Of a stretch of 64,000 nucleotides of DNA, positions 39,576 through 60,184 are shown in pieces. Every line of letters begins with the position of its first letter. The first letter of the stretch is position 1. Origin of the DNA: Chromatiales bacterium (ex Bugula neritina AB1) (GTDB lineage Bacteria; Pseudomonadota; Gammaproteobacteria; Granulosicoccales; Granulosicoccaceae); assembly GCA_001730015.1 (NCBI GenBank), contig MDLA01000087.1, forward strand, positions 10,270 through 74,269. Direction: 5' to 3'. The notes under the pieces are model-generated. The model did not search any database, had not been told where the DNA came from, and worked only from the letters and a program-made list of their open reading frames with translations. The position numbers were made by a program, and so were the translations under genes.

Positions 39576-40712
39576 TCAGGTATGAGTAAGGCCGGCCTCT
39601 AGTCGTGCGCGGGCAGCTCCGGATTTTATTGCACTTCTAGCGCGGTCAGCGGCGTCAGCCAGAGTCTTTTCAGCGCCTGTATGCCACATGATCAGTGCGC
39701 TGCCCAGTACTGCGGCATCCTGCACCGCACCGGATTCGCCTTCCAGTGCTCGAATACCGGCTTCTGCACACAGTGTAGCCAGGGCATCTATATCCCACTT
39801 CATACCGATACGCTCCGGGTGAAACGGTGCAGCCGGTGTGTTTTCCGGTATATCCTGTGCGCGGTAGTTTCGGTCCAGGCCGATTTCTTTAAGTATTACG
39901 TCGTGTTCAGTTGCTATGTCATCTTCGTGATAGCGAACAAAGTGCGCTTTGGCTTTAAACGATGGAATAATACCGCCTTCAGTGCCACGTATCAGCAGCA
40001 GGGAGTCGTGCTTTATATGGCGCCCGAGCATGGCATAGGTTTCTCTATAGGGCTTGTGAACATAGCCTGTTACCAGGTGGGTTTTCTGCACGCCTTTGAT
40101 CGGCGCCAGCATTACTTCGGTTGTGCTCAGTACCGGGCGTTTCACTATTTGCGTGCGTAGTTTGTTCAGACTATATAGGGCCGGGTTAAAAATGCTCTGA
40201 TCGGCATAGCCCCAGCCTATTGCCGGATCCGCAAGCCGTTGCGCCAGTTGCTGCATCGATTGCAGCGGATCTCCACCCAGCGCGCGCAGGATAGTGTGGT
40301 GTGTAACGCCGTTTTTAGGACCGCACAATTCCACGCCGTGCGAGTAGGCATTCACGCCGCATGCGGCCAGTACCGGCAATACAAACAATGATCCCTGCAG
40401 TGTTCGATTAAAGCCATTATAGGGATCAGCAATAACAACTGCTTCAGGGATATCTGATGTTAAATTGCTGGTGCGATCAATCAGGGCATCCTGCACACCT
40501 TTGAGCTCTTCATCCGTTTCACGTTTCATGCGCAAACCAATCAGGAACACGGCAGCTTGTACCGGATCTGCGGATCCGTCCAGCAGCGCGTGCATCACCG
40601 CTTTAGCTTCGCTATAACTTATGTTTTTACTGAGTTCAGGGCCTGTTGCGACGCGTTGAATTACGGAGCGCATCAGTTCCGCATCGGCGGTATCGAATGT
40701 GTTTGAATTCAT
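39576..40712 (-). CDS. Anthranilate phosphoribosyltransferase-like protein (TrpD2 type)
   Basis: A 378-aa member of the glycosyltransferase family 3 fold. The N-terminal helical domain has the family's SYSEAKAVMHALLDG and QAAVFLIGLRMKRET. In place of the TrpD GTGGD phosphoribosyl loop it has ADPYNGFNRT, as in TrpD2/YbiB-like proteins that bind nucleic acid rather than make tryptophan. It lies 50 bp downstream of the Rieske gene on the same strand. No other trp gene is nearby, so a role in tryptophan synthesis is unlikely. Confidence 0.75.
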   Translation of the reverse strand: MNSNTFDTADAELMRSVIQRVATGPELSKNISYSEAKAVMHALLDGSADPVQAAVFLIGLRMKRETDEELKGVQDALIDRTSNLTSDIPEAVVIADPYNGFNRTLQGSLFVLPVLAACGVNAYSHGVELCGPKNGVTHHTILRALGGDPLQSMQQLAQRLADPAIGWGYADQSIFNPALYSLNKLRTQIVKRPVLSTTEVMLAPIKGVQKTHLVTGYVHKPYRETYAMLGRHIKHDSLLLIRGTEGGIIPSFKAKAHFVRYHEDDIATEHDVILKEIGLDRNYRAQDIPENTPAAPFHPERIGMKWDIDALATLCAEAGIRALEGESGAVQDAAVLGSALIMWHTGAEKTLADAADRARSAIKSGAARARLEAGLTHT

Positions 40713-40762
40713 GGGAATCAGTAGTCGCCGGGGTGTTTGGTTACAGGGTTGAAATATAGCGT

Positions 40763-41092
40763 TTACAGACTCTGGTCTGTAGGATTCAGGTGTATAAAAA
40801 TGGTGTCGTTCTCGATGGTGACCGGGTAGATCACCAGATCATCTTCTGCCGGGTCATCCAGAACTTTGCCGGTGGTCAGATCAAATCGACTGCCGTGCAG
40901 CGGGCATTTGATCAGGGTGCCATTCAGATTACCGTCGCACAGTCTTGCGTCTTCATGGGTGCACATTTCATCGGCGACATAGACGCCGCTGTCGGTGTGT
41001 GCCACCACGACGTTTCTATCGGCCAGCGATACGCAGCGCATGTCGCGTATCGGGATGTCGCTAAGGTGACAAACGCGGTGTTTGGTTTGCAT
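40763..41092 (-). CDS. Rieske [2Fe-2S] ferredoxin-like protein
   Basis: A 109-aa soluble Rieske protein. The cluster ligands are in CTHEDARLCDG (Cys44, His46) and CPLHGSRFD (Cys63, His66), with the typical spacing. It resembles Rieske ferredoxins of oxygenase systems or NirD-like subunits. The TrpD2-like gene follows. It could supply electrons to the 2OG- or P450-type oxygenases of this window, but none is directly adjacent. Confidence 0.88.
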   Translation of the reverse strand: MQTKHRVCHLSDIPIRDMRCVSLADRNVVVAHTDSGVYVADEMCTHEDARLCDGNLNGTLIKCPLHGSRFDLTTGKVLDDPAEDDLVIYPVTIENDTIFIHLNPTDQSL

Positions 41093-41266
41093 GGTAATAT
41101 CGATTCGCGGTTGAGGTAACGGGCGGTTGCGCCATTATATAACGCGTTAACACGGCAACGTTAAGGAATCACCGTTATTTCCCTCGAAAATTGCCGCAGT
41201 GGTATATACCGGGTTTTAATGCCAGTGGTAATTGCCGAACTAATTTCTCTGTGCCGGAACAAGTAA

Positions 41267-41719
41267 ATGACCGAATCAATCAGTGAAGACGACATGCTGC
41301 TTGCCAGCGGCATTGCCGCGTTTGAGGCCAAAGAGTTCAGGCGCGCCTGGCAATTGCTGCAGCCGTTGTCTGACCGGAGCAGTGCCGATGCTCAATACCG
41401 TTGCGCTATTATGCTGCAAAATGGCCTTGGTGTTGTAGCCGACGCAGAAGCAGCGGCGGCGCTGATGTCGGCGGCCGCTGTTCAGGGTTCTGGTCTGGCG
41501 CAGCATTCTCTGGGCATAATGAACCTGTTTGGTGAAGGGGTGGCGCAGAATACTCCAGAGGCAATCCGCTTACTTGAGCTTGCCGGAGAGAGCGGGCTTG
41601 CCGGAGCGTGGTCCACGCTGGGGATGATATACAACGAGGGTCAGGGTATAGAGCCGGATAAAGCACTCGCCAGAAAGTACTACACCAAAGCGGGCTTTGA
41701 TCCCGATGAGTTTGTTTGA
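41267..41719 (+). CDS. Sel1-like repeat protein
   Basis: A small (150 aa) cytosolic protein of about three Sel1 helical repeats: ADAQYRCAIMLQNGLGVVAD, AQHSLGIMNLFGEGVAQN and AWSTLGMIYNEGQGIEPD. Such repeats mediate protein-protein contacts. No enzymatic motif is seen. It is divergent from the Rieske gene and lies between two - strand blocks. Confidence 0.88.
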   Translation: MTESISEDDMLLASGIAAFEAKEFRRAWQLLQPLSDRSSADAQYRCAIMLQNGLGVVADAEAAAALMSAAAVQGSGLAQHSLGIMNLFGEGVAQNTPEAIRLLELAGESGLAGAWSTLGMIYNEGQGIEPDKALARKYYTKAGFDPDEFV

Positions 41720-42021
41720 ATCTTCTGTTTTTCAATGCGTTTTTGTGGCTGTGCAGGGTGCTTGTGTCGTGTTACTGGAACAGGAGTTCGCGCGTTACTA
41801 CAAGGGCATTTGAGCACGAGCGACATCCGTCAGGCGCCTGTCTGAGAATGAGAGTCGTCGCGAGGATGTGAGGTTTTGAGTCAGATATTGCGATCGATTG
41901 AGGCGAATAGTTATTCATATTCAACAAAATCGATCGTAATAGCTGGCCAAAGGATCGCGTCCGCAGTAGATCATTCATTCTTGGAGAGGCTCCTCTGCCG
42001 CCGCAGATGTACTCGGTTTAG
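41720..42021. other. Gene-free gap between Sel1 and Cas6-like genes
   Basis: About 300 bases between two convergent genes. Short open frames here lack motifs or ribosome sites. I see no strong hairpin and no repeats suggestive of a CRISPR array. Confidence 0.4.
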
Positions 42022-42714
42022 TCACACGGCGCCGGTGTCTTTGTGCGGTATAAGTATGCCGCAGCCCATGGATCGCAATTCGCCGAGACCGGTGTCCTGA
42101 AGTACCAGTGATAGATTCGGTGGTACCTCTGCCAGAAGAACGCTGCGCGTCGTTACCGGGCCATCGGGTGATTTAATCTGATTGACCCGGCCGCACAGCA
42201 GCTTGGTCGGTTTGTAACCCAGTGCGGCACAGGCGTTAACAATAGCGCTGGTGAAGTGCGCTTCGTTATCTGTTGCTGAAGCTGATGTGTCGAAGACGGT
42301 GTAACGTGAATAAAGTGTAGAGCTTGCGAAGATTGGTCGGAGTTTACCAGAGACTATAGTAAGCGGGTGTCCGGCTATCGTGTGTCTGGTTTCGCGCAGG
42401 CTGGTAATCAAATCAGCGGCAGTGTTTTTATTTACACGTATTTTCAGGCGTGTCCGGCGTGACAGCATCAGCGCCTCGTTGCTGTTTGCCGATGGGCGTT
42501 CCCAGCCGTTCTGCGAGCCGGCGAGGTGAATCGGGTGTACCGCCAGATCCGTACGGGCAATTGATAATCTATTACTAAGAAAGTTTATCAGTGCTGCCGA
42601 TAAATCTGCAGCGTGATCAACCGGTAGCTGCTTACACTCTATAGAAAACACCACATCGGTCATTGCAGCAGCTGGAGCGGCTGTACTGCCTTCATTTTCC
42701 TGCCACAGGGTCAT
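42022..42714 (-). CDS. Orphan Cas6/Cmx6-like RAMP protein
   Basis: A 230-aa protein resembling the Cas6/Cmx6 group (type I-MYXAN) of CRISPR RNA-processing RAMPs. It starts MTDVVFSIECKQLPVDHAADL (counting from the second Met) and has the middle segment LSRRTRLKIRV and ASSTLYSRYTVF. It ends with a glycine-rich RAMP loop, GLGELRSMGCG, near residue 212. There is no cas gene or CRISPR repeat in the window. It is the last gene of a tight four-gene - strand operon that diverges from dsrA, so its present role may be RNA processing unrelated to CRISPR. The start could be 42714 or 42663. Confidence 0.72.
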   Translation of the reverse strand: MTLWQENEGSTAAPAAAMTDVVFSIECKQLPVDHAADLSAALINFLSNRLSIARTDLAVHPIHLAGSQNGWERPSANSNEALMLSRRTRLKIRVNKNTAADLITSLRETRHTIAGHPLTIVSGKLRPIFASSTLYSRYTVFDTSASATDNEAHFTSAIVNACAALGYKPTKLLCGRVNQIKSPDGPVTTRSVLLAEVPPNLSLVLQDTGLGELRSMGCGILIPHKDTGAV

Positions 42715-42763
42715 CGCTTATAGCTTCTGTGCACAATAAATTTTCTATAGCTTTGGCTGCTCA

Positions 42764-43477
42764 CTACGCCGGCAGCTCATTCGTTAGGGCCTGCCGATCA
42801 AACCACCAGTCGTCCTGTACCATAACGTCCACCACGTTGCGCAGCCGAATCAGAAATTTGTCCGGTACATCGAGCTCCAGCCGTTCAACCCATAGTTCAA
42901 ACATCTGCTGGTTATCTATATTGCTGTGGCGTCGCGCAACTCTGGCGAGCATGGCGCCGGTAAACAGCCGGAGTTTTTCGTGTTCATTGCCTTCAGCGCG
43001 GATATCCACAACGTAGTGCGCTGCTGCAGCGGCAACTGCAGCGCCATCGGAGTTGTCGGGTGTTTCGTCAATTATATGATCAAGAATGGCAACTGTTAGA
43101 TTGGGATCGACCGGATAGGTAACTGCCAGCCACGCAGCCTGACCGATAGCGGCGATGGAATCGTCGCGCTCACAGAGGTAGATATACTGGCATGCCAGCG
43201 CGGCAAGTTCGAACTGCATGTGTTCGATACACGGTTGAATTGTCTGACGTGCGCGCTCGTAGGCCTGTGTTTTCAGGTCGAGGTCAAGTTCAAGGGCGGC
43301 GATGTCCAGGTGCAGTTTGATTAGTTCAACTGCGCCGAGCGGATGTATGCCGCTGTCGTTGAAATGCAGTTGGTCCAGCAGTGCTTCCAGTTGCGATTGC
43401 CGGTCTGCAACTGGTGTGGTGTCGAGGCGCTGCTGCTGCTCGCGTGAGAGCTTGAGGTTGTCTGGATCGGTTGCCAT
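42764..43477 (-). CDS. Conserved-looking helical protein of unknown function in the dsr-divergent operon
   Basis: I do not recognise this 237-aa protein. It has no signal peptide or membrane span. It is acidic and largely alpha-helical, with repeated Ala/Leu-rich segments (IKLHLDIAALELDLDLKTQ, FELAALACQYIYLCERDD) that suggest a TPR-like or helical-repeat fold. The end (WVERLELDVPDKFLIRLRNV) is less regular. It starts 2 bp after the stop of the 63-aa gene and is followed after 49 bp by the Cas6-like gene, so it is part of the same operon. Confidence 0.75.
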   Translation of the reverse strand: MATDPDNLKLSREQQQRLDTTPVADRQSQLEALLDQLHFNDSGIHPLGAVELIKLHLDIAALELDLDLKTQAYERARQTIQPCIEHMQFELAALACQYIYLCERDDSIAAIGQAAWLAVTYPVDPNLTVAILDHIIDETPDNSDGAAVAAAAAHYVVDIRAEGNEHEKLRLFTGAMLARVARRHSNIDNQQMFELWVERLELDVPDKFLIRLRNVVDVMVQDDWWFDRQALTNELPA

Positions 43478-43479
43478 TT

Positions 43480-43671
43480 TCAGGATTCACTGGCGCTGCT
43501 GAACGCTGCTTCGAGTACCATTTCCCAGTTATCAGGGGTGTCAGGGTAGGGTGGTTTGAGATCCATGCGAAAAAACATTTCGCTGCGGGATCGCTGCTTC
43601 ACAATAGCAACCAGCTCGGCAAATGTGCTGACTTCCCGATGCTGCAGCAGCAGTTCGCTAACGTGTAACAT
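43480..43671 (-). CDS. 63-aa protein of unknown function overlapping the dioxygenase gene
   Basis: A short acidic protein with no cysteines. It has a helical start (HVSELLLQHREVSTFAELVAIV) and a proline-bearing second half (RMDLKPPYPDTPDNWEM). Its first 14 bases overlap the end of the dioxygenase gene, and the following gene begins 2 bp after its stop, so it is placed as a real, coupled gene. I cannot assign a family. Confidence 0.65.
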   Translation of the reverse strand: MLHVSELLLQHREVSTFAELVAIVKQRSRSEMFFRMDLKPPYPDTPDNWEMVLEAAFSSASES

Positions 43672-44764
43672 GGTTCGTTGCCCTGGTAATTTCTGCTTCG
43701 GATGCCGTTATGTTACCCGCGTCTGCTGTCACAGAAAATGCCTGCGGATTTAATTGTGCCAGCTGATGGTAGCGGCCGCGAAGCATCTGCCGCCCGCTGC
43801 TGCTGCTGCTGTTTTCAATGCGGCTTTGATCGAGGTTTACATGACCGCGTGTGCTGCCGTATCGAGTGTTGTTGCTGTTGCTATTTTCGCGGGACTTCGG
43901 CGGGTCGGTGAAAGCACGGCGTGCATGCAGAATATTGCGCGTCACAATGCCCTGAAAACGAGTGAGCCTGATGCAGTGATGGCAGTCGGCTGATAGATCT
44001 ATACACTCTTTTGCCGTTGCAGCGGCCTGGCGCGTGGCCTCGTCTCGCCACTCGATATGTCTGCTGCGGGTGGTGAAATTGGTGCCGAGCGTACCGTCGT
44101 CGTGGGTAAAAAACAAAGGGGCGGTCCGATCCGGCCGATGGTGGCCCAGTTTGTCGCTGTTGCCGGGCAGGGTCATCGCCTGCGGGTGCCACAACAATGC
44201 GACTATCCCGGGGTTTAAGTCGTACAGGCGTATCAGCAAGAGGCCGGTGTCCATTAACATTAACTCACCACCACTCTGCGCCGGTTGCACGCAATGCAGG
44301 GTAAAGCAGCGAACCGATTGCTCGCGCGTATTGTAGTAGCCGTCGGTGTGCCAGTTCATTGCTCGGGAGGTATAAGGAATGAACCGGCCTTGTTCCGTCC
44401 CTTCGAGGTCTTGCAGCACTGAAAGGGCATTAGCGTCGGTTATAACTCCGTTGTCTGTGACTGTCAGCCCGAGGCAATGATTTAATCTGTTGATACTGTC
44501 ACTCAGGTTATCGGGTGTGTCTGTCCATTGGTAGTGGCAAAAGCCGTAATCCCTCACCGTGTTGCACAGGGTAGCCAGTGCGTGGCGGTCTTCTGATGTA
44601 TTGATCGCCGGTGTTAGCCGGATTCCATGCTGCAACGGCGCAGGGCGGACTTGCTCCAGAGTGAGTCTGTGATCACGCCAGTGGTGATACTCTGTAGAAC
44701 TGCCATCATAGCGTGGCGGTATGGCGTGGGTAGCGGCATGGTTTTGTGTATTGTTTGCCGTCAT
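43658..44764 (-). CDS. TauD/TfdA-like Fe(II)/2-oxoglutarate dioxygenase with low-complexity insertion
   Basis: A 368-aa non-haem iron dioxygenase. The iron-binding facial triad is visible as NWHTDGYYN (His and Asp, near residue 139) and the distal His in NILHARRAF near residue 284. In relatives, the 2-oxoglutarate-binding Arg follows soon after; here about 38 residues rich in Ser and Asn (positions about 293-330) intervene before RQMLRGRYHQL. It heads the four-gene operon divergent from dsrA. The target is unknown; a sulfonate or a protein/RNA substrate are both conceivable. Confidence 0.82.
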   Translation of the reverse strand: MTANNTQNHAATHAIPPRYDGSSTEYHHWRDHRLTLEQVRPAPLQHGIRLTPAINTSEDRHALATLCNTVRDYGFCHYQWTDTPDNLSDSINRLNHCLGLTVTDNGVITDANALSVLQDLEGTEQGRFIPYTSRAMNWHTDGYYNTREQSVRCFTLHCVQPAQSGGELMLMDTGLLLIRLYDLNPGIVALLWHPQAMTLPGNSDKLGHHRPDRTAPLFFTHDDGTLGTNFTTRSRHIEWRDEATRQAAATAKECIDLSADCHHCIRLTRFQGIVTRNILHARRAFTDPPKSRENSNSNNTRYGSTRGHVNLDQSRIENSSSSSGRQMLRGRYHQLAQLNPQAFSVTADAGNITASEAEITRATNHVTR

Positions 44765-45075
44765 GGGAGACCGGTTGAGCTATTTAATGAGGCGATAACC
44801 GCGCGTTTGCCAGTGGTAACATTGCAGTATAGCGATGAATTCAGTTTGCGAGGGTACAGGCAAAGTCAACGGATGTCGCGGGTTTGCCGCTGCAAAAACC
44901 GCATGTATTCCTTAGGGTATACACTGACCGCAGAGCTTGTGCACAAAGAGTTATTGGCGCTGACCCGACCACTATCTACAATAAGGCTGTGTGGAGTTTG
45001 TCCGCAATTTTGTTGTGTGTGTACCGCGGGTCTCAACAGTAATTGTATTCGTGTATGCACTGGAGGCATTGAAAA
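44765..45075. promoter_or_regulatory. Divergent promoter region between the dioxygenase operon and dsrA
   Basis: About 310 bases that must hold the promoters of both operons. I could not find a convincing NarL heptamer pair or FNR site by eye. A GGAGG ribosome site for dsrA lies at 45062-45066. No other gene is seen. Confidence 0.5.
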
Positions 45076-46401
45076 ATGAAAGACACTGATTCTGATACCA
45101 GCGGGGACGATAGCCCGGAAAACGGCAAGTCGCATGTGACGCCAATGCTGGACCACCTGGAGTCCGGGCCGTGGCCAAGTTTTGTCTCGGGTATTAAGCG
45201 CTTGCGTGATGACCACCCTAGCGACCGCGTCAACGGCATGGCCAATGATCTGCTGGGCCAGCTGGAGCATTCCTACCAGACCCGCAAGGGCTACTGGAAG
45301 GGCGGTACGGTCAGTGTCTATGGTTACGGCGGCGGCATTATTCCGCGGTTTTCAGAAGTGGGCGATATGTTCCCGAAATCGCGCGAGTTCCACACGCTGA
45401 GGGTGCAGCCTCCGGCAGGTAATCATTACTCCACCGATATTCTGCGAAATCTGGCAGACAGCTGGGAAAAGCACGGTTCCGGGCTGGTAACGTTTCACGG
45501 GCAAACTGGCAATATCATGTTCATTGGTGCCACCACTGATAACACCCAGCACTTTTTTGATGAGATCAACGACTACGGCTTTGACCTCGGAGGTGCTGGC
45601 CCCTGCGTACGCACGGCGATGTCCTGTGTCGGCAGCGCTCGTTGTGAGATGTCATGCGCCAACGAGCACAAGGTTCACCGAAGTCTGGTGAATAACTTCA
45701 CCGATGATATCCATCGACCAGCGCTGCCCTATAAATTTAAATTCAAGGTGTCCGGCTGCCCCAACGATTGCATGAATTCCATCGAACGGGCCGATTTTGC
45801 CGTTATTGGCACCTGGCGCGATGACATGAAAGTTGATCAGCAGGCATTTAAAGATTACGTAGGCCGCAAAGGCCGCCAGCACACTATAGACAATATTATT
45901 ACGCGCTGCCCGACCAACGCGCTGTCACTGAAAGACGATGATTCAGTAGAAGTTGATAACCGCAATTGCGTGCGCTGCATGCATTGCCTGAATGTAGTGC
46001 CTTCGGCGTTTTCGCCAGGTGATGACAAAGGCATTAGTATATTGATCGGTGGAAAACGCACACTGAAAATCGGTGATCTGTTCGGAACCGTGATCGTACC
46101 GTTCATGCGGCTGGAAACAGAAGAAGATTACGAACGCCTGGTCGAAATTGCCGAAGAGACCATAGATTTCTTCGCCGAAAATGCGCTGGAGCACGAGCGC
46201 ACCGGTGAAATGATCGAGCGCATTGGTCTGGTGAATTTTCTCGAAGGTATCGGCGTGGATGTCGACCCCAACATGATTGCCCACCCGCGTGAAAGCTCTT
46301 ACGTGCGAATGGATGCCTGGGATGATGAAGCCGCCAAGTGGTTCGAGAGGCGTGCAAGTGGCGACACCTCTGTGCAGGCGCAGGACAGGAGTGCCGTCTA
46401 A
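45076..46401 (+). CDS. dsrA: Reverse dissimilatory sulfite reductase subunit alpha
   Basis: Catalytic subunit (441 aa) of the cytosolic DsrAB complex, which here probably oxidises sulfur carried by DsrC to sulfite. The sirohaem-[4Fe-4S] cysteines appear in CVRTAMSCVGSARCEMSC near residue 177 and in SGCPNDCMN near residue 228. A ferredoxin-type cluster motif CVRCMHC is inserted near residue 298, as in all DsrA. Length and motif spacing are normal. It opens the dsr operon, with GGAGG nine bases before its ATG, and overlaps dsrB by one base (TAATG). Confidence 0.97.
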   Translation: MKDTDSDTSGDDSPENGKSHVTPMLDHLESGPWPSFVSGIKRLRDDHPSDRVNGMANDLLGQLEHSYQTRKGYWKGGTVSVYGYGGGIIPRFSEVGDMFPKSREFHTLRVQPPAGNHYSTDILRNLADSWEKHGSGLVTFHGQTGNIMFIGATTDNTQHFFDEINDYGFDLGGAGPCVRTAMSCVGSARCEMSCANEHKVHRSLVNNFTDDIHRPALPYKFKFKVSGCPNDCMNSIERADFAVIGTWRDDMKVDQQAFKDYVGRKGRQHTIDNIITRCPTNALSLKDDDSVEVDNRNCVRCMHCLNVVPSAFSPGDDKGISILIGGKRTLKIGDLFGTVIVPFMRLETEEDYERLVEIAEETIDFFAENALEHERTGEMIERIGLVNFLEGIGVDVDPNMIAHPRESSYVRMDAWDDEAAKWFERRASGDTSVQAQDRSAV

Positions 46402-47498
46402 TGGCTGCGCAACCTGAGAAAAAACAGAAGAAGCAAATGCGGCCAGCCATCGAAAGTGGCTGTCCGGACGGTATGCAGTATCTGCATCCGGTGATGCTCA
46501 GAAACTTCGGCCAGTGGGTTGATCACAAGCATCCCAGGCCCGGTGTTTTATGTCACATTGCCCAAAGCGGTGAAATGATCTGGACAGTCCGTGCCGGTAC
46601 CCAGCGTATTCTTGATGTATTCACCCTGCGCAAACTGTGTGACATTGGCGATGAATTTGGCGATGGCTTCGTGCGCTTCACTATTCGATCAAATATTGAG
46701 TATATGGTCGACAGCGAATCAAAAGTGGAGCCGTTAATTAATGCGCTGACCGAAGCCGGTTTCATTGTGGGTGGAACGCAAAACACCGTTGCAATGATTT
46801 CCCACACGCAGGGCTGGCTGCATTGTGACATCCCCGGTACCGATGCCTCCGGTATAGTAAAATCGATGATGGATGAACTGATTCATGAGTTCACCAACGC
46901 GGAAATGCCTAATCGCGTACATATAACTACTTCTTGCTGCCAGATAAATTGCGGCGGCCAGGGGGATATCGCTATTAATATTCAGCACACCAAACCGCCG
47001 AAAATCAACCATGATCTGGTGGCCAATGTGTGTGAGCGCCCGTCGGTGGTGGCGCGTTGTCCGGTGGCGGCAATCCGGCCGGCAATGGTCAACGGCAAGC
47101 CGTCGCTTGAGGTTGATGAGAAAAAGTGCATTTGCTGCGGTGCGTGTTATCCGCCTTGCCCGCCAATGCAGATCAACGACCCGGAGCATTCAAAGCTTGC
47201 GGTATGGGTAGGCGGCAACCATTCGAATGCACGCAGTAAACCATCGTTTCAAAAGCTGGTTGCCGCTGGTATTCCGAATAACCCGCCGCGCTGGCCTGAA
47301 GCCACAGCCGTGGTGAAAAAAATACTGGCAGCCTATAAAGAAGATGCAAAAGACTGGGAGCGAATTAATGACTGGATTGATCGCATCGGCTGGCCGCGCT
47401 TTTTTGAAATTACCGATCTGCCCTTTACCAAGTTTCACATAGACAACTGGCGAGGCTCGCGCAAGAGCCTGAACTCATCGAGTCACATCCGTTTTTGA
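46401..47498 (+). CDS. dsrB: Reverse dissimilatory sulfite reductase subunit beta
   Basis: Second subunit of DsrAB (365 aa). Near residue 170 the motif TTSCCQINCGG supplies cluster cysteines and the later CICCGACYPPCPP is the ferredoxin-like insertion. The start ATG at 46401 overlaps the dsrA stop; a longer open frame to 46338 lies inside dsrA and is not needed. The start MAAQPEKKQKKQ is very basic. Subunit order and coupling match known oxidative dsr loci. Confidence 0.96.
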   Translation: MAAQPEKKQKKQMRPAIESGCPDGMQYLHPVMLRNFGQWVDHKHPRPGVLCHIAQSGEMIWTVRAGTQRILDVFTLRKLCDIGDEFGDGFVRFTIRSNIEYMVDSESKVEPLINALTEAGFIVGGTQNTVAMISHTQGWLHCDIPGTDASGIVKSMMDELIHEFTNAEMPNRVHITTSCCQINCGGQGDIAINIQHTKPPKINHDLVANVCERPSVVARCPVAAIRPAMVNGKPSLEVDEKKCICCGACYPPCPPMQINDPEHSKLAVWVGGNHSNARSKPSFQKLVAAGIPNNPPRWPEATAVVKKILAAYKEDAKDWERINDWIDRIGWPRFFEITDLPFTKFHIDNWRGSRKSLNSSSHIRF

Positions 47499-47547
47499 TC
47501 TGCTGCGATTCTGACTCTATATCGTTTTCTATAACACGGGTACGACA

Positions 47548-47940
47548 GTGAAAATAGCCGTATTGGTCAATGAAGGGCCTTATCAGCATCAGGCCTCCGA
47601 CAGTGCTTTTCAGTTTGTTACGGCAGCGCTTGATGCGGGCCATGAAGTTAACCGGGTGTTTTTCTATCACGATGGAGTGAACAACGGCTCGCGCCTGATG
47701 ACACCACCGCAGGACGACCGACACATACAGAAGCGCTGGTCTGCACTGGCTGCCGAAAAGTCGGTTGATCTGGTGTTGTGTGTAGCTGCCTGCCAGCGAC
47801 GCGGTCTGGTTGATGAGGGCGAGCAGGAACGTCACGGTAAAGATGCGAGTAATATCGCGGACGGGTTTCGGATCTCTGGTCTCGGGCAGTTGCTGGAAGC
47901 CGGTATTGAAGCGGATCGAGTGGTGACTTTCGGTGACTGA
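47548..47940 (+). CDS. dsrE: Sulfur carrier complex DsrEFH, subunit DsrE
   Basis: A 130-aa cytosolic protein of the TusD/DsrE fold. The sulfur-binding cysteine lies in LCVAACQRRG near residue 78, as expected for the active-site Cys of DsrE. It uses GTG at 47548. With DsrF and DsrH it forms a hexamer that passes persulfide sulfur to DsrC. DsrE with this cysteine is the marker of oxidative rather than reductive pathways. Confidence 0.95.
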   Translation: MKIAVLVNEGPYQHQASDSAFQFVTAALDAGHEVNRVFFYHDGVNNGSRLMTPPQDDRHIQKRWSALAAEKSVDLVLCVAACQRRGLVDEGEQERHGKDASNIADGFRISGLGQLLEAGIEADRVVTFGD

Positions 47941-47979
47941 ATTAGCTAATACGCACATAAACGGCAACGGGTAGGCTCT

Positions 47980-48363
47980 GTGGAAGAAGAATACGAAGGC
48001 GGTGTGGTTAAAAAGTTTCTGTATGTGAACCGGCGTGCACCGCACGGAACCGTGTATGCGCTTGAATCCCTTGAAACTGTTTTAATTGGTGCGGCGTTTG
48101 ATCAGGACGTCAGCGTGTTGTTTATTGATGACGGTGTCTATCAGTTGAAAAAGCAGCAACAGCCCGATTGCCTCGAGATGAGAAATTTCTCGAAAACGTT
48201 TCGTGCGCTTGAAATGTACGATGTCGAAAAATTGTTCGTTGAATCAGAATCACTGTCTGAACGCGGCCTGGTACAGGACGATCTGCTCGTCGATGTGGAG
48301 CTGGTCAGCCGGCACGCAGTGCATGAACTTATAGATCAGCAAGATGTAATACTGAGCTTCTAA
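47980..48363 (+). CDS. dsrF: Sulfur carrier complex DsrEFH, subunit DsrF
   Basis: A 127-aa TusC/DsrF-fold protein with GTG start at 47980 (MEEEYEGGVVKKFL). The family core FLYVNRRAPHGTVYALE and FIDDGVYQL is intact. DsrF in this family has no essential cysteine; it provides the structural partner of DsrE. It is followed after 4 bp by dsrH. Confidence 0.95.
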   Translation: MEEEYEGGVVKKFLYVNRRAPHGTVYALESLETVLIGAAFDQDVSVLFIDDGVYQLKKQQQPDCLEMRNFSKTFRALEMYDVEKLFVESESLSERGLVQDDLLVDVELVSRHAVHELIDQQDVILSF

Positions 48364-48367
48364 ATCA

Positions 48368-48670
48368 ATGGCTACCCTGAATATTGTTAATAAATCACCA
48401 TTTGAGAAGCGCACGCTGGAACAGTGCCTGTCGCGTATTGCTGATGACGACAGCGTGCTGCTTATTGAAGATGCATCAGTGGTTGCTGTATCCGGAACCG
48501 CCTATGCTGATCAGCTTCAGGGCAGCAAGCAGAAGGTATATGTTTTATCGCCCGATCTGGCGGCCAGAGGCCTGGCTGAAAGCTCTTTACTCGATGGTCT
48601 GACGGCAGTGGATTACAGCGGCTTTGTTGAGCTTGTAACCACGCATGATCGGGTCCATTCCTGGCTATAG
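48368..48670 (+). CDS. dsrH: Sulfur carrier complex DsrEFH, subunit DsrH
   Basis: A 100-aa TusB/DsrH-fold protein. The conserved cysteine is Cys20 in RTLEQCLSRI, the residue implicated in DsrE interaction. The gene starts 4 bp after dsrF. Its end is separated from dsrC by about 170 bases holding a strong hairpin. Confidence 0.94.
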   Translation: MATLNIVNKSPFEKRTLEQCLSRIADDDSVLLIEDASVVAVSGTAYADQLQGSKQKVYVLSPDLAARGLAESSLLDGLTAVDYSGFVELVTTHDRVHSWL

Positions 48671-57588: not shown

Positions 57589-57918
57589 AAGGCAGCAGCG
57601 GTTGAGCTCAAGCGCAGCATGGCACATCACGACTTTGATGATATGCCCATCCGTATTGCCGCGCAGAAAAGCGCAGATGGTTCTATAGAGTACCAGATGG
57701 GTTTCGATGAAGCCGGACCGGGCGATACCATGGTTGCCAGCAGCGGAATAGATGTGGTGATCGCCAATGATCACAAGCCGTTGCTGGCAGGAACTGAACT
57801 GAACTATGTCACCACCGATGATGGCGAGAAGAATTTCATATTCCTGAACCCCAACGATCCGACCTTTGTACAACCTTCACAAAGTGATCCACCGGCTTCA
57901 TCCAGCGAAACAGATTGA
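57574..57918 (+). CDS. dsrR: DsrR, A-type-scaffold-like protein without cysteines
   Basis: A 114-aa protein of the IscA/HesB fold. The A-type core (VELKRSMAHHDFDDMPIRI to TELNYVTTDDGEKNFIFLNP) is present, but the cluster-binding cysteines of IscA are absent, as in characterised DsrR. It is thought to support post-transcriptional or maturation steps of the Dsr proteins. It is followed directly by the kinase gene (TGATG overlap). Confidence 0.88.
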   Translation: MFKVSKAAAVELKRSMAHHDFDDMPIRIAAQKSADGSIEYQMGFDEAGPGDTMVASSGIDVVIANDHKPLLAGTELNYVTTDDGEKNFIFLNPNDPTFVQPSQSDPPASSSETD

Positions 57919-59510
57919 TGGAAGAGAGCCTGGAATTGCAGGATTTCACTAGTCGTCGCGGCGAGTTGTCGGCCTATGGTCGTGCGGTAAATTCTGCGGC
58001 CACGTTGCGCTGGATAATAATTGCTGTCGCATTAGTTGTAACCCTGCTGTTGTTGGCTTTGTTCTTCCTCGAAAGCGCCAGCGCATCGGTAAAAATAGTT
58101 GTTTTTATAGCGCTCGTCTGTCTGTTAGCTGGCCTTTATAGCATTTGGCGTTACACGAATCAGCACTTTATTGAACCGGATCTGGCGTTTCGCAAGTGGT
58201 TGCAGCAAGTTTGTGATGGCGAGCTTTCATCTTATATAGATTTGCCGCCATCGCATCGGCATTTCAAGGAGCTGAATTTCCATACCCACAATCTGGCCAA
58301 TGCGCTGCGTAAACTCTCCACCGATATGGAATCTCTGGTCGAATCGCAAACACGAAGGTTGGAATATCAAAACCGGGTGCTGGAATTACTGTATCGACTA
58401 ACGGCCGATTTATCGAGTGAAACAGAACAGCAGGCCGTGCTAAATACTGTTTGCAACTATCTTGCAGACTGGTTCGGTGATGCCACCGTGGCAGCTTATA
58501 TGAAAAAGTCCGATCATCTTCGGCGTACCGCTCTGGGTCAGTCGAGCGTGCTGGGTGATTCTTCAGAAACGTTGTTCTCGGGCGTTCTAAAGTCAACCGG
58601 TGTTTTTTCGTTTAGTGATCAGATGGCCTGTAGCGAACTTGTCGATGACATTCAGCACGTTAAGCCTGCCAGTGCCGGGGATCGCCATCTGATTCGGGTG
58701 CCGGTGTTTAGAGGGGAACAGGTCGTCGGGGTGATCATTCTAGAGGTGGGGAATTTCGATGCCAGCACCAAAGGTCAGTCTGACCGGGTACTGACTACCG
58801 TATCTGAGCAAATCAGTCTGTTTGTAACCAAAAACTCGGCACTGGAACATGTACAGGAAGCGCGATTAATGCAGGCACGCAATAATCTGGGGGCTGAAAT
58901 TCACGACTCTCTGGCGCAGACTCTGCTGGCGACGCGTTATCATGTCACCATGCTGCGTGAGGCTGCAATAGGCAAAACAGATCAGCATTTATTCGATGAT
59001 ATCGTTCGTATAGAAGGTATGATCGGAGAGGCCAATGAAGAAGTGCGGGGGCTGATTCAGGAATACCGCAAGCCCTTGTCTTCTCACCGTGGCACCGATT
59101 CACTGCAGACAACCATTGATCAGTTTCGAAAAAGCAGTGGTATGCAGGTGTTTTTTCAGAGCGATAGCGCGCCGATCAAATTTACCCCGCGTGAAGATAG
59201 CGTGATACAACGTATCGTTGGTGAGGCACTGATCAATGCGCAAAAATACTCAAATGCCGGAATGATCCGCGTTTATCTTCGATGCCAGCCGTCCGGAGTG
59301 CGCTGCTTGCTAATTGAAGACGACGGTGTTGGGTTTGCTCCAGAGCCTGCCGGAGAGTCTCTTTCCAGCAGCACAGCAGACCATATCGGATTATCGATCA
59401 TGCACGAGCGTGCATTGAGTATTGGAGCTGTGGTTGCAATAGATTCTGAACCGGGGGAGGGCACGCGAGTGTCGCTGGAGCTGCCACCGTTGATACCGGG
59501 AGAAGAATAG
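57918..59510 (+). CDS. NarX-type sensor histidine kinase linked to the dsr operon
   Basis: A 530-aa membrane-bound kinase. Two hydrophobic spans at about residues 30-50 and 57-77 have almost nothing between them, so there is no periplasmic sensor domain. A linker/coiled region and a GAF-like domain (about 150-315) follow. The dimerisation box GAEIHDSLAQTLLATRYHVTM carries the phosphorylated His in NarX-like (HisKA_3) form. The ATPase domain shows the N-box EALINAQKYS and IEDDGVGF. It starts inside the dsrR stop and precedes a NarL-type regulator by 2 bp; a redox or sulfur signal in the cytosol is the likely input. Confidence 0.9.
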   Translation: MEESLELQDFTSRRGELSAYGRAVNSAATLRWIIIAVALVVTLLLLALFFLESASASVKIVVFIALVCLLAGLYSIWRYTNQHFIEPDLAFRKWLQQVCDGELSSYIDLPPSHRHFKELNFHTHNLANALRKLSTDMESLVESQTRRLEYQNRVLELLYRLTADLSSETEQQAVLNTVCNYLADWFGDATVAAYMKKSDHLRRTALGQSSVLGDSSETLFSGVLKSTGVFSFSDQMACSELVDDIQHVKPASAGDRHLIRVPVFRGEQVVGVIILEVGNFDASTKGQSDRVLTTVSEQISLFVTKNSALEHVQEARLMQARNNLGAEIHDSLAQTLLATRYHVTMLREAAIGKTDQHLFDDIVRIEGMIGEANEEVRGLIQEYRKPLSSHRGTDSLQTTIDQFRKSSGMQVFFQSDSAPIKFTPREDSVIQRIVGEALINAQKYSNAGMIRVYLRCQPSGVRCLLIEDDGVGFAPEPAGESLSSSTADHIGLSIMHERALSIGAVVAIDSEPGEGTRVSLELPPLIPGEE

Positions 59511-59512
59511 CT

Positions 59513-60184
59513 ATGGATACAATCAGCCTAGTTATTATAGACGATCACACCCTTTTTCGTACCGGCCTGAACGAGCTGCTCGCCCGCCGTAATCTAAATG
59601 TGTTGGGTATGACAGGCAGACCCGATGAAGCGTTGGCGCTAGTAGCCGAAAAGCAGCCTGATATAGTATTGCTGGATTTGCGTATGGGAGAGGTAGGCGG
59701 GCTTGATGTACTGAGTGATATACGAGCTCAATGGCCGCAGCAATGCGTCGTTATTCTAACAACCAGTATCGAGGAGTCGGATCTCCTGAACGCGCTGAAA
59801 CTTGGGGCAAACGGATATTTACTCAAAGATATAGAGCCCGATAGCTTTGTTGAATTGCTGGTTCGAGCCAAAGCCGGTGAAACGGTAGTAGCGCCGGAGC
59901 TTACGGGTTTGCTTGCTCGTGCTGCTATTTCGTCAGAGAGCCCGGTTAAAAGGGTTCGAAGCGAGAACTATAACCTGACCCCCAGAGAAATGGATATACT
60001 CCGCCATATTGCTAAAGGTGAAAGTAATAAGCATATCGCCAGTGCGTTGGGAATTGTAGATGGCACGGTAAAACTGCATGTTCGGGCGGTCTTAAAAAAG
60101 CTTGGTGTGCAATCCCGGGTACAGGCTGCGGTGTTGGCAGTGTCTGAGAAACTATGCGAAGAAAAGCCTGAATCGAACACCTGA
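59513..60184 (+). CDS. NarL/FixJ-type response regulator linked to the dsr operon
   Basis: A 223-aa regulator. The receiver domain has the acidic pocket (IIDDHTLFRTGL) and phospho-Asp in DIVLLDLRMGEVGG, with Lys in GYLLKDIEP. The LuxR-type DNA-binding domain at the C-terminus reads LTPREMDILRHIAKGESNKH then VKLHVRAVLKKLGVQSR. It begins 2 bp after the kinase gene, so they are a cognate pair. Likely targets are the dsr promoter, the divergent dioxygenase operon, or both. Confidence 0.92.
   Translation: MDTISLVIIDDHTLFRTGLNELLARRNLNVLGMTGRPDEALALVAEKQPDIVLLDLRMGEVGGLDVLSDIRAQWPQQCVVILTTSIEESDLLNALKLGANGYLLKDIEPDSFVELLVRAKAGETVVAPELTGLLARAAISSESPVKRVRSENYNLTPREMDILRHIAKGESNKHIASALGIVDGTVKLHVRAVLKKLGVQSRVQAAVLAVSEKLCEEKPESNT

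Follow-up and report, generated by a model that had tools for sequence, protein, structure and literature searches.

A Cas6-like gene and its companions accompany the dsr genes in gammaproteobacteria

A run of four genes lies divergent from dsrA in a 64,000-nt stretch of DNA (hereafter the window) from Chromatiales bacterium (ex Bugula neritina AB1) (assembly GCA_001730015.1, contig MDLA01000087.1). It encodes an Fe(II)/2-oxoglutarate oxygenase (2OG), conserved proteins of 63 and 237 amino acids (x63 and y237) and a protein resembling Cas6, the RNA-processing protein of clustered regularly interspaced short palindromic repeat (CRISPR) systems. These genes belong to a genuine system that is common across the class sampled, linked to dsr and not dependent on Cas1.

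Linkage of the module to the dsr genes

A contig scan with the Cas6-like protein returned 103 relatives. The best 80 loci and the window together gave a set of 81; the titles of the 80 name Granulosicoccaceae, Chromatiaceae genera, Sedimenticola, Thiosymbion, Solemya symbionts and unplaced gammaproteobacteria. With profiles built on the proteins of the window, x63 was detected in 73 of the 81 loci, y237 in 76, 2OG in 32 and dsrA in 69, with partial matches to x63 in L043 and to 2OG in L011 and L012, and with the 2OG match of L075 lying elsewhere on its contig. The commonest layout has dsrAB-EFH-C-M-K running in one direction and x63-y237-Cas6, with or without 2OG in front, in the opposite direction. 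The module is the divergent neighbour of the gene cluster for the reverse dissimilatory sulfite reductase (rDsr) pathway (dsrABEFHCMKLJOPNRS) in most loci. Twelve loci have no dsrA, and eight of these reach a contig end on the dsr side, while L038, L039, L049 and L061 have neither dsrA nor x63 nor y237, so that the Cas6-like gene stands apart there.

The same association was observed in a class-wide sample of 369 gammaproteobacterial genomes, with dsrA counted at an E-value of 1e-30 or better. The Cas6-like gene was present in 118 of these genomes and dsrA in 119 (112 over the curated cut-off), and both were present in 111, an association with an odds ratio of 482 (Fisher p 7e-75, a statistic that ignores descent). 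Where both occur, the two genes lie no more than 7 kb apart in 82 genomes, on different contigs in 27, and far apart on the same contig in 2. These counts bear out the suggestion, made in an earlier note on this DNA, of an accessory system linked to dsr, and the gene set does recur next to dsr in related genomes, so the dsr linkage of the module is well supported. x63 was found in 106 genomes (101 with dsrA, 105 with the Cas6-like protein) and y237 in 93 (87 with dsrA). The other three sampled genomes of the window's own family gave no Cas6-like match and no dsrA over the cut-off. Pairwise distances of DsrA and the Cas6-like protein correlate, with r 0.725 across the 63 loci that have both, a comparison made with no control gene.

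Fifteen genomes have one of the two genes without the other, and 12 of these mismatches coincide with contig ends or incomplete genomes. Seven carry the Cas6-like gene without a strong dsrA: in G117, G143, G177, G236, G367 and G368 the operon meets a contig end on the dsr side (a dsrA fragment is present in G368), and G349 has a different arrangement. The eight with dsrA and no Cas6-like gene comprise G257, G160 and G120, where dsrA is at or near a contig end; G173, where x63 and 2OG are followed by a contig end; G129, with a dsrA fragment at a contig end; G288, which is 55% complete; and G261 and G405, which are true or unclear exceptions. G159 and G375, both single-contig genomes, have 42 and 518 kb between the Cas6-like gene and dsrA. 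Both keep this gene, a DsrC with the GGY tail described below, and x63 and y237 as a pair elsewhere, with 2OG not seen in the stretches fetched. As the module is kept in these two genomes without linkage, a functional bond is favoured over hitch-hiking.

A DsrC paralog beside the Cas6-like gene

In the relatives, a same-strand gene of the DsrC family adjoins the Cas6-like gene in 108 of 137 loci (genomes partly repeated). The encoded protein ends in GGY in 107 of the 108, the remaining one being cut by a contig end, and only two of the 108 have any cysteine among their last 20 residues, so the paralog as a rule lacks the conserved C-terminal cysteines of a DsrC carrier. Among the 77 other DsrC-family open reading frames (ORFs) of the same loci, 73 have a penultimate cysteine and 3 more have the GGY tail. 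The paralog is like the DsrC/TusE family (PF04358) in its profile, with L166:8504-8851 scoring 111.1 bits against a cut-off of 24.9, and in its position at the dsr locus, but unlike it in having no C-terminal cysteine pair and in its GGY tail. The four genes that the earlier note took for one operon are linked to dsr as proposed, but the parts that vary least across genomes are the Cas6-like gene, x63 and the cysteine-less DsrC paralog, with y237 and 2OG often missing or elsewhere.

The window itself has no DsrC paralog adjoining its Cas6-like gene, and a GGY-tailed DsrC was not found in its genome, where the only two DsrC-family places are dsrC and L180:273-1067 (G000:C54). The latter is a 264-aa ORF with a DsrC-family domain (PF04358, 70 bits), an extra C-terminal part and a tail that is not GGY; we take the extra part to look like a CBS pair. 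For Thiodictyon syntrophicum, the genome paper (PMC5944118) places a DsrC-like gene, THSYN_22565, a few tags from the dsr cluster (THSYN_22480, 22490-22545). Judging by the layouts of other loci rather than by that genome itself, THSYN_22565 is probably the paralog described here.

Family, fold and conserved residues of the Cas6-like protein

By profile and predicted model, the Cas6-like protein is homologous to Cas6 and shares its fold, and thus belongs to a known protein family. It passes the PF09559 cut-off of 26.7 bits (Table 1), and its predicted model (predicted local distance difference test, pLDDT, 89.4; residues 67-71 uncertain) matches 8fcu_B in Foldseek at E 4.2e-16 with a template modelling (TM) score of 0.71. 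The closest solved structure, both by sequence (3e-21) and by fold, is the Cas6 of a type I-B CRISPR-associated transposon (CAST; PDB 8fcj, 8fcu). With TIGR02807 (cas6_cmx6) the window protein scores 73.6 bits, under the cut-off of 98.85; judged by E-value, all 44 aligned members match that model, the best at E 7.9e-38. Of the description "Cas6/Cmx6-like RAMP" given previously, the Cas6 part therefore stands on profile and fold, but the Cmx6 part falls below its cut-off.

Residues were compared in an alignment of 127 rows, which after two short rows were dropped held 111 dsr-type rows (some genomes counted twice), 6 distant rows (three genomes, each twice) and 8 other PF09559 rows. The C-terminal glycine loop noted earlier (GLGELRSMGCG) is indeed kept, with G211, G217 and G219 in all 111 dsr-type rows and G209 in 110. 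H34 is universal, being found in every dsr-type, distant and other PF09559 row. H60 occurs in 110 of 111 dsr-type rows, 4 of 6 distant rows and 2 of 8 other PF09559 rows, and was dropped as a candidate catalytic histidine because most of the other PF09559 rows are without it. All 111 dsr-type rows carry S67, N69, G70, W71, R73, P74, R87, R137 and R190. The positions W71-P74 are gaps in all distant and all other PF09559 rows and so constitute a dsr-type insertion; R87 is common to dsr-type and distant rows only, and R137 and R190 are absent from the distant rows, with R137 in one of the eight other PF09559 rows.

A tree was built from 48 rows: 37 of the 110 dsr-type rows (36 random ones and the window), 3 distant rows and 8 other PF09559 rows, a ninth of the last group being too short and omitted. 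The 8 others split from all 40 dsr rows at 100/99, and the 37 dsr-type rows grouped at 99/97. The tree is unrooted and permits, but does not prove, a single origin. Compared with the Cas6 proteins of CRISPR systems (PF09559, the TIGR02807 Cas6/Cmx6 of type I-MYXAN, the type I-B CAST Cas6), the dsr-type protein is alike in profile, fold, glycine loop and H34, but adjoins dsr rather than cas genes, forms its own branch, has an insertion with W71, R73 and P74, and is kept without Cas1.

Relation to CRISPR

The earlier note had observed that no cas gene or repeat array is present; this holds for the window, where no other cas gene and no array, near the Cas6-like gene or elsewhere, was found, but not for the genome, which has arrays and cas genes on other contigs. 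Contig C45 carries type I-C genes, and C149 carries type I-G genes together with about 32 repeats; the two systems have Cas5c and a Cas5-6 fusion. Systems with Cas5c or a Cas5-6 fusion generally process their own RNA. The Cas6-like gene itself lies with dsr genes and not with cas genes or an array.

INDEPENDENCE from CRISPR was judged by Cas1 searches at E 0.001, in 50 carriers and in 80 of the 118 carriers. No Cas1 match was found in 10 of the 50 and 39 of the 80, Cas1 being the sole cas gene searched and drafts being liable to miss loci; a match, in some cases only a weak one, was present in 40 and 41, respectively. On Cas1 evidence alone, the gene is thus not confined to genomes with CRISPR-Cas. 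The Cas1-negative carriers include five genomes, 1.0-1.1 Mb in size, in which 2OG-x63-Cas6-DsrC(GGY) is retained beside dsrAB, and also the symbionts of Solemya velum and S. elarraichensis. That the protein is kept without CRISPR, as first proposed from the window, agrees with these Cas1 counts, and its independence of CRISPR is fairly supported. All 58 Cas1-positive carriers have a PF09559 match and eight have more than one; three of the eight extra loci lie beside arrays and five showed no array in the stretch fetched.

In many sulfur-oxidiser genomes there are also ORFs, some 300-345 aa long, that each show two weak and partial matches to Cas1 (PF01867), for example G025:C10:79180-79518, G034:C2:385879-386523 and G018:C25:1367-1993; in G018 and G025 such an ORF is the sole Cas1-like match.

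Partner genes and distant relatives

By profile and ligand pattern, the first gene is a TauD/TfdA Fe(II)/2OG oxygenase. Its product passes the cut-off of 27 bits for PF02668 (TauD), and the iron ligands of the HxD...H pattern, H139, D141 and H280, are present in 48 of 48 rows, these being the 48 of 73 matches long and strong enough for alignment. It is weakly similar to trimethyllysine and butyrobetaine dioxygenases.

Neither x63 nor y237 matches a Pfam or NCBIfam family at E 1, which agrees with the earlier view that only the first and last genes have a recognisable fold, but y237 is predicted to be all-helical with a pLDDT of 94. Foldseek gave y237 no significant match, the weak best ones being to TPR-type proteins (best E 0.039), and further weak matches were judged to be chance: DUF1177 (one of 39 members, E 0.0024), a choline-sulfatase model (5 of 39) and HyoA (2 of 39; best E 0.0017 for the last two). 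In the 12 loci where y237 lies away from Cas6, it has no trustworthy further common neighbour except x63 in two; two other groups of three loci each were noticed near stray y237 genes. A search of 31 x63 members gave no family match, with one weak match of one member.

A distant search of 299 genomes of the phylum, whose listed rows all come from the same class, found three weaker Cas6-like matches besides the window's own. At all three loci the Cas6-like gene is divergent from dsrAB, a DsrC-family gene comes after it, an oxygenase-like gene lies close by, and a DUF6967 protein precedes Cas6 at the position of x63. One distant dsr locus has DUF6967 and the Cas6 domain in one open frame, which hints that the small protein may contact Cas6. 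The idea that x63 is itself a form of DUF6967 was unsupported (hhalign probability 0.85%), though a short stretch resembles it. In one distant dsr locus, a rhodanese-domain gene comes right after the DsrC-family gene (L156:7196-8062).

A mobile or viral origin of the module was rejected, as no relative was found in viral contigs (40 stretches fit a pattern, none being a relative by tblastn) or in plasmids, and the four proteins gave no PHROG.

A palindrome upstream of dsrA

Comparison of 67 dsrA-upstream regions (two of 3 kb omitted) revealed the palindrome CTATCCC-N4-GGGATAG, present with at most two mismatches in 59 of them and exact in 25, in the same sequences in which it was discovered. 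It ends at a median of 237 bp before dsrA in the 59 regions. In a whole-genome count over 20 genomes, most of them chosen for an exact copy in the dsr region, 16 had a single exact copy genome-wide, located at dsr; G049 had two exact copies elsewhere and a dsr copy with one mismatch, and G000, G001 and G013 had none. The reversed control pattern gave zero copies. At this site the window lacks any copy with three or fewer mismatches; its inverted repeat TGTATTCCTTAGGGTATACA aligns with the palindrome of the relatives at 4 mismatches and is possibly a diverged form of it.

A role of the palindrome as a Cas6 hairpin was set aside. Its mispairs are mostly non-pairs (39 or 44), with G-U pairs numbering 11 or 6 and two two-sided changes, and since they do not favour G-U, the palindrome is read as a putative DNA operator. 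An excerpt of PMC5944118 cites another paper for binding of Allochromatium vinosum DsrC to DNA upstream of dsr, and a connection between this binding and the palindrome would be a guess. Around the palindrome lie two conserved blocks, approximately TATATTAG-N5-GTTGA (both sides) and CCCAAT-n-GTGGAAT (alignment columns 715-760 and 955-1090), the strict form of the former being found in only 15 of the 67 regions.

Possible roles of the module

A Cas6 relative was probably taken over here for sulfur metabolism, as the Cas6-like gene stands beside dsr also where no Cas1 was found. The explanation we tentatively put foremost, while giving it a little less than an even chance, is a dsr-dedicated module built round an exapted Cas6 that acts as an RNA-binding or RNA-cutting regulator, the RNA step being proposed because of the Cas6 fold with its glycine loop. 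The Cas6-like protein would bind, and perhaps cut, a specific cellular RNA, most likely a dsr transcript, with x63 and y237 as partners or scaffold. The cysteine-less DsrC would compete with DsrC for its partners and so report the sulfur state, and through this competition dsr output would be tuned post-transcriptionally. A more far-reaching version, which we regard as rather doubtful, would place a Cas6-derived RNA switch, so far overlooked, at the core of bacterial sulfur oxidation: the Cas6-like protein, together with x63, would bind a dsr transcript, and the cysteine-less GGY mimic of DsrC would sense carrier loading and gate the RNA step. If true, a CRISPR enzyme would have been recruited to regulate metabolism before rDsr sulfur oxidisers spread among the gammaproteobacteria.

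Several observations weigh against an RNA regulator independent of CRISPR and bound to dsr. The RNA processing or oxidative modification that the earlier note had envisaged is conjectural, and the searches for an RNA target gave none: Rfam gave no match at E 1 in window positions 40500-48500, and in the long loci the best hairpins reach z < -3 in 53% of 57 dsrA-dsrB gaps and 71% of 56 dsrC-dsrM gaps, values overstated because just 25 mononucleotide shuffles were used and the top window among several was taken. These hairpins are stable but differ in sequence between loci and therefore do not allow a target to be named. The palindrome has the appearance of a DNA operator directed chiefly at dsr, with a candidate regulon that is very small. 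The catalytic residue is not established, as H34 is found in all PF09559 rows and H60 is not, and the three distant dsr proteins are without the insertion. The Cas6-like protein is also less conserved than DsrA (median identity 51.6% vs 86.3% over 63 loci), the co-occurrence figures take no account of shared descent, and with Cas1 as the only CRISPR marker searched, other cas genes or arrays may occur in the Cas1-negative genomes.

These points leave room for other readings. The Cas6 fold may have lost its RNA role and instead serve the Dsr machinery by binding a protein or ligand, for instance as an assembly or docking factor acting with the cysteine-less DsrC on DsrAB, DsrEFH or DsrMKJOP. 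We consider this somewhat unlikely, though several points favour it: W71, R73, P74, R137 and R190 are invariant in the 111 rows and were counted as absent from other PF09559 proteins, which together with R87, shared with distant dsr rows only, would form a conserved site that is new; a DsrC-family protein is the regular neighbour; and the searches for an RNA target came out empty. On the other hand, the glycine loop is kept, and basic residues are frequent among the newly conserved ones, which fits RNA too. Alternatively, the oxygenase could be the heart of a metabolic module, oxidising a small sulfur or amine compound that feeds Dsr, with the other genes as accessories. The intact iron ligands, the weak similarity to trimethyllysine and butyrobetaine dioxygenases and the first place of 2OG in the window operon speak for it, yet the Cas6-like gene stays where 2OG, found in only 32 of 81 loci (three partial or elsewhere), does not, and this reading is improbable.

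Slightly less probable again is that transfer RNA (tRNA) is the target of the Cas6-like protein and the DsrC paralog, in a side branch of a Tus-like sulfur relay. TusE is a DsrC homolog that works with MnmA. The idea draws on the homology of DsrEFH and DsrC to TusBCD and TusE of tRNA thiolation (described in an excerpt of PMC3397948), but the paralog is without the relay cysteines and nothing found points to tRNA. That the protein is an ordinary Cas6, processing CRISPR RNA for arrays elsewhere and standing beside dsr by chance, is very improbable. The window's genome does have two CRISPR-Cas loci, and the gene is the only PF09559 match in 50 of the 58 Cas1-positive carriers, but those two systems come with their own Cas5c and Cas5-6 fusion, the dsr-type proteins form a separate branch, the gene tracks dsrA, and 39 of 80 and 10 of 50 carriers gave no Cas1 match.

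Novelty and significance

No role outside CRISPR is known to us for any Cas6 family. In our judgement, the system as a whole is categorically new, its Cas6-like protein itself being in a known family. Searches of open-licence full text in PubMed Central (PMC) found no description of the module; most subscription papers lie outside that scope, and an earlier mention is possible. The excerpts of PMC5944118, PMC5728499, PMC3397948 and PMC11267869 do not name a divergent module. Because of its Cas6 homology, the gene is likely to be labelled CRISPR-associated in databases.

The rDsr pathway is a central environmental route of sulfur oxidation, and the gene set tracks dsrA, with the Cas6-like gene in 111 of the 119 dsrA genomes, and persists in genomes of 1.0-1.1 Mb. 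The module offers a handle on two questions, the tuning of dsr output and the role of cysteine-less DsrC paralogs. Cultured purple sulfur bacteria are suitable for testing it, strains of Thiocystis, Thiocapsa, Thiorhodococcus and Allochromatium being represented among the loci.

Gene layout in the window

Table 1. Features of the module and of the adjacent dsr genes in the window.
Feature	Position	Strand	Remarks
2OG, TauD-type Fe(II)/2-oxoglutarate oxygenase, first gene of the operon	43658..44764	-	368 aa; PF02668 42.2 bits
x63, conserved 63-aa protein, no known family	43480..43671	-	73/81 loci, 106/369 genomes
y237, 237-aa protein predicted all-helical, no known family	42764..43477	-	76/81 loci, 93/369 genomes
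Cas6-like protein, dsr type	42022..42714	-	230 aa; PF09559 161.8 bits; Cas6 fold match
dsrA, divergent neighbour	45076..46401	+	TIGR02064 608.3 bits
dsrB	46338..47498	+	TIGR02066 538.4 bits
Inverted repeat TGTATTCCTTAGGGTATACA, promoter region between operon and dsrA	44904..44923	no strand	pattern written from the window itself

The ORFs listed in Table 1 confirm four packed genes on the minus strand that share a region of about 310 bp with dsrA. 2OG and x63 overlap by 14 bp, x63 and y237 are separated by 2 bp, and y237 and the Cas6-like gene by 49 bp, with a gap of 311 bp between 2OG and the start of dsrA. Both dsrA and dsrB are genuine, their scores exceeding the curated cut-offs, and they are followed by DsrE/F-type, DsrH, DsrC and DsrM-like genes. 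On the other side, Sel1-repeat, Rieske and TrpD-like genes adjoin the operon (window positions 39576-41719), each being found in 7 of the 81 loci. Further downstream on the dsr strand, at 57915-60184, lie genes for a histidine kinase and a LuxR-type response regulator.

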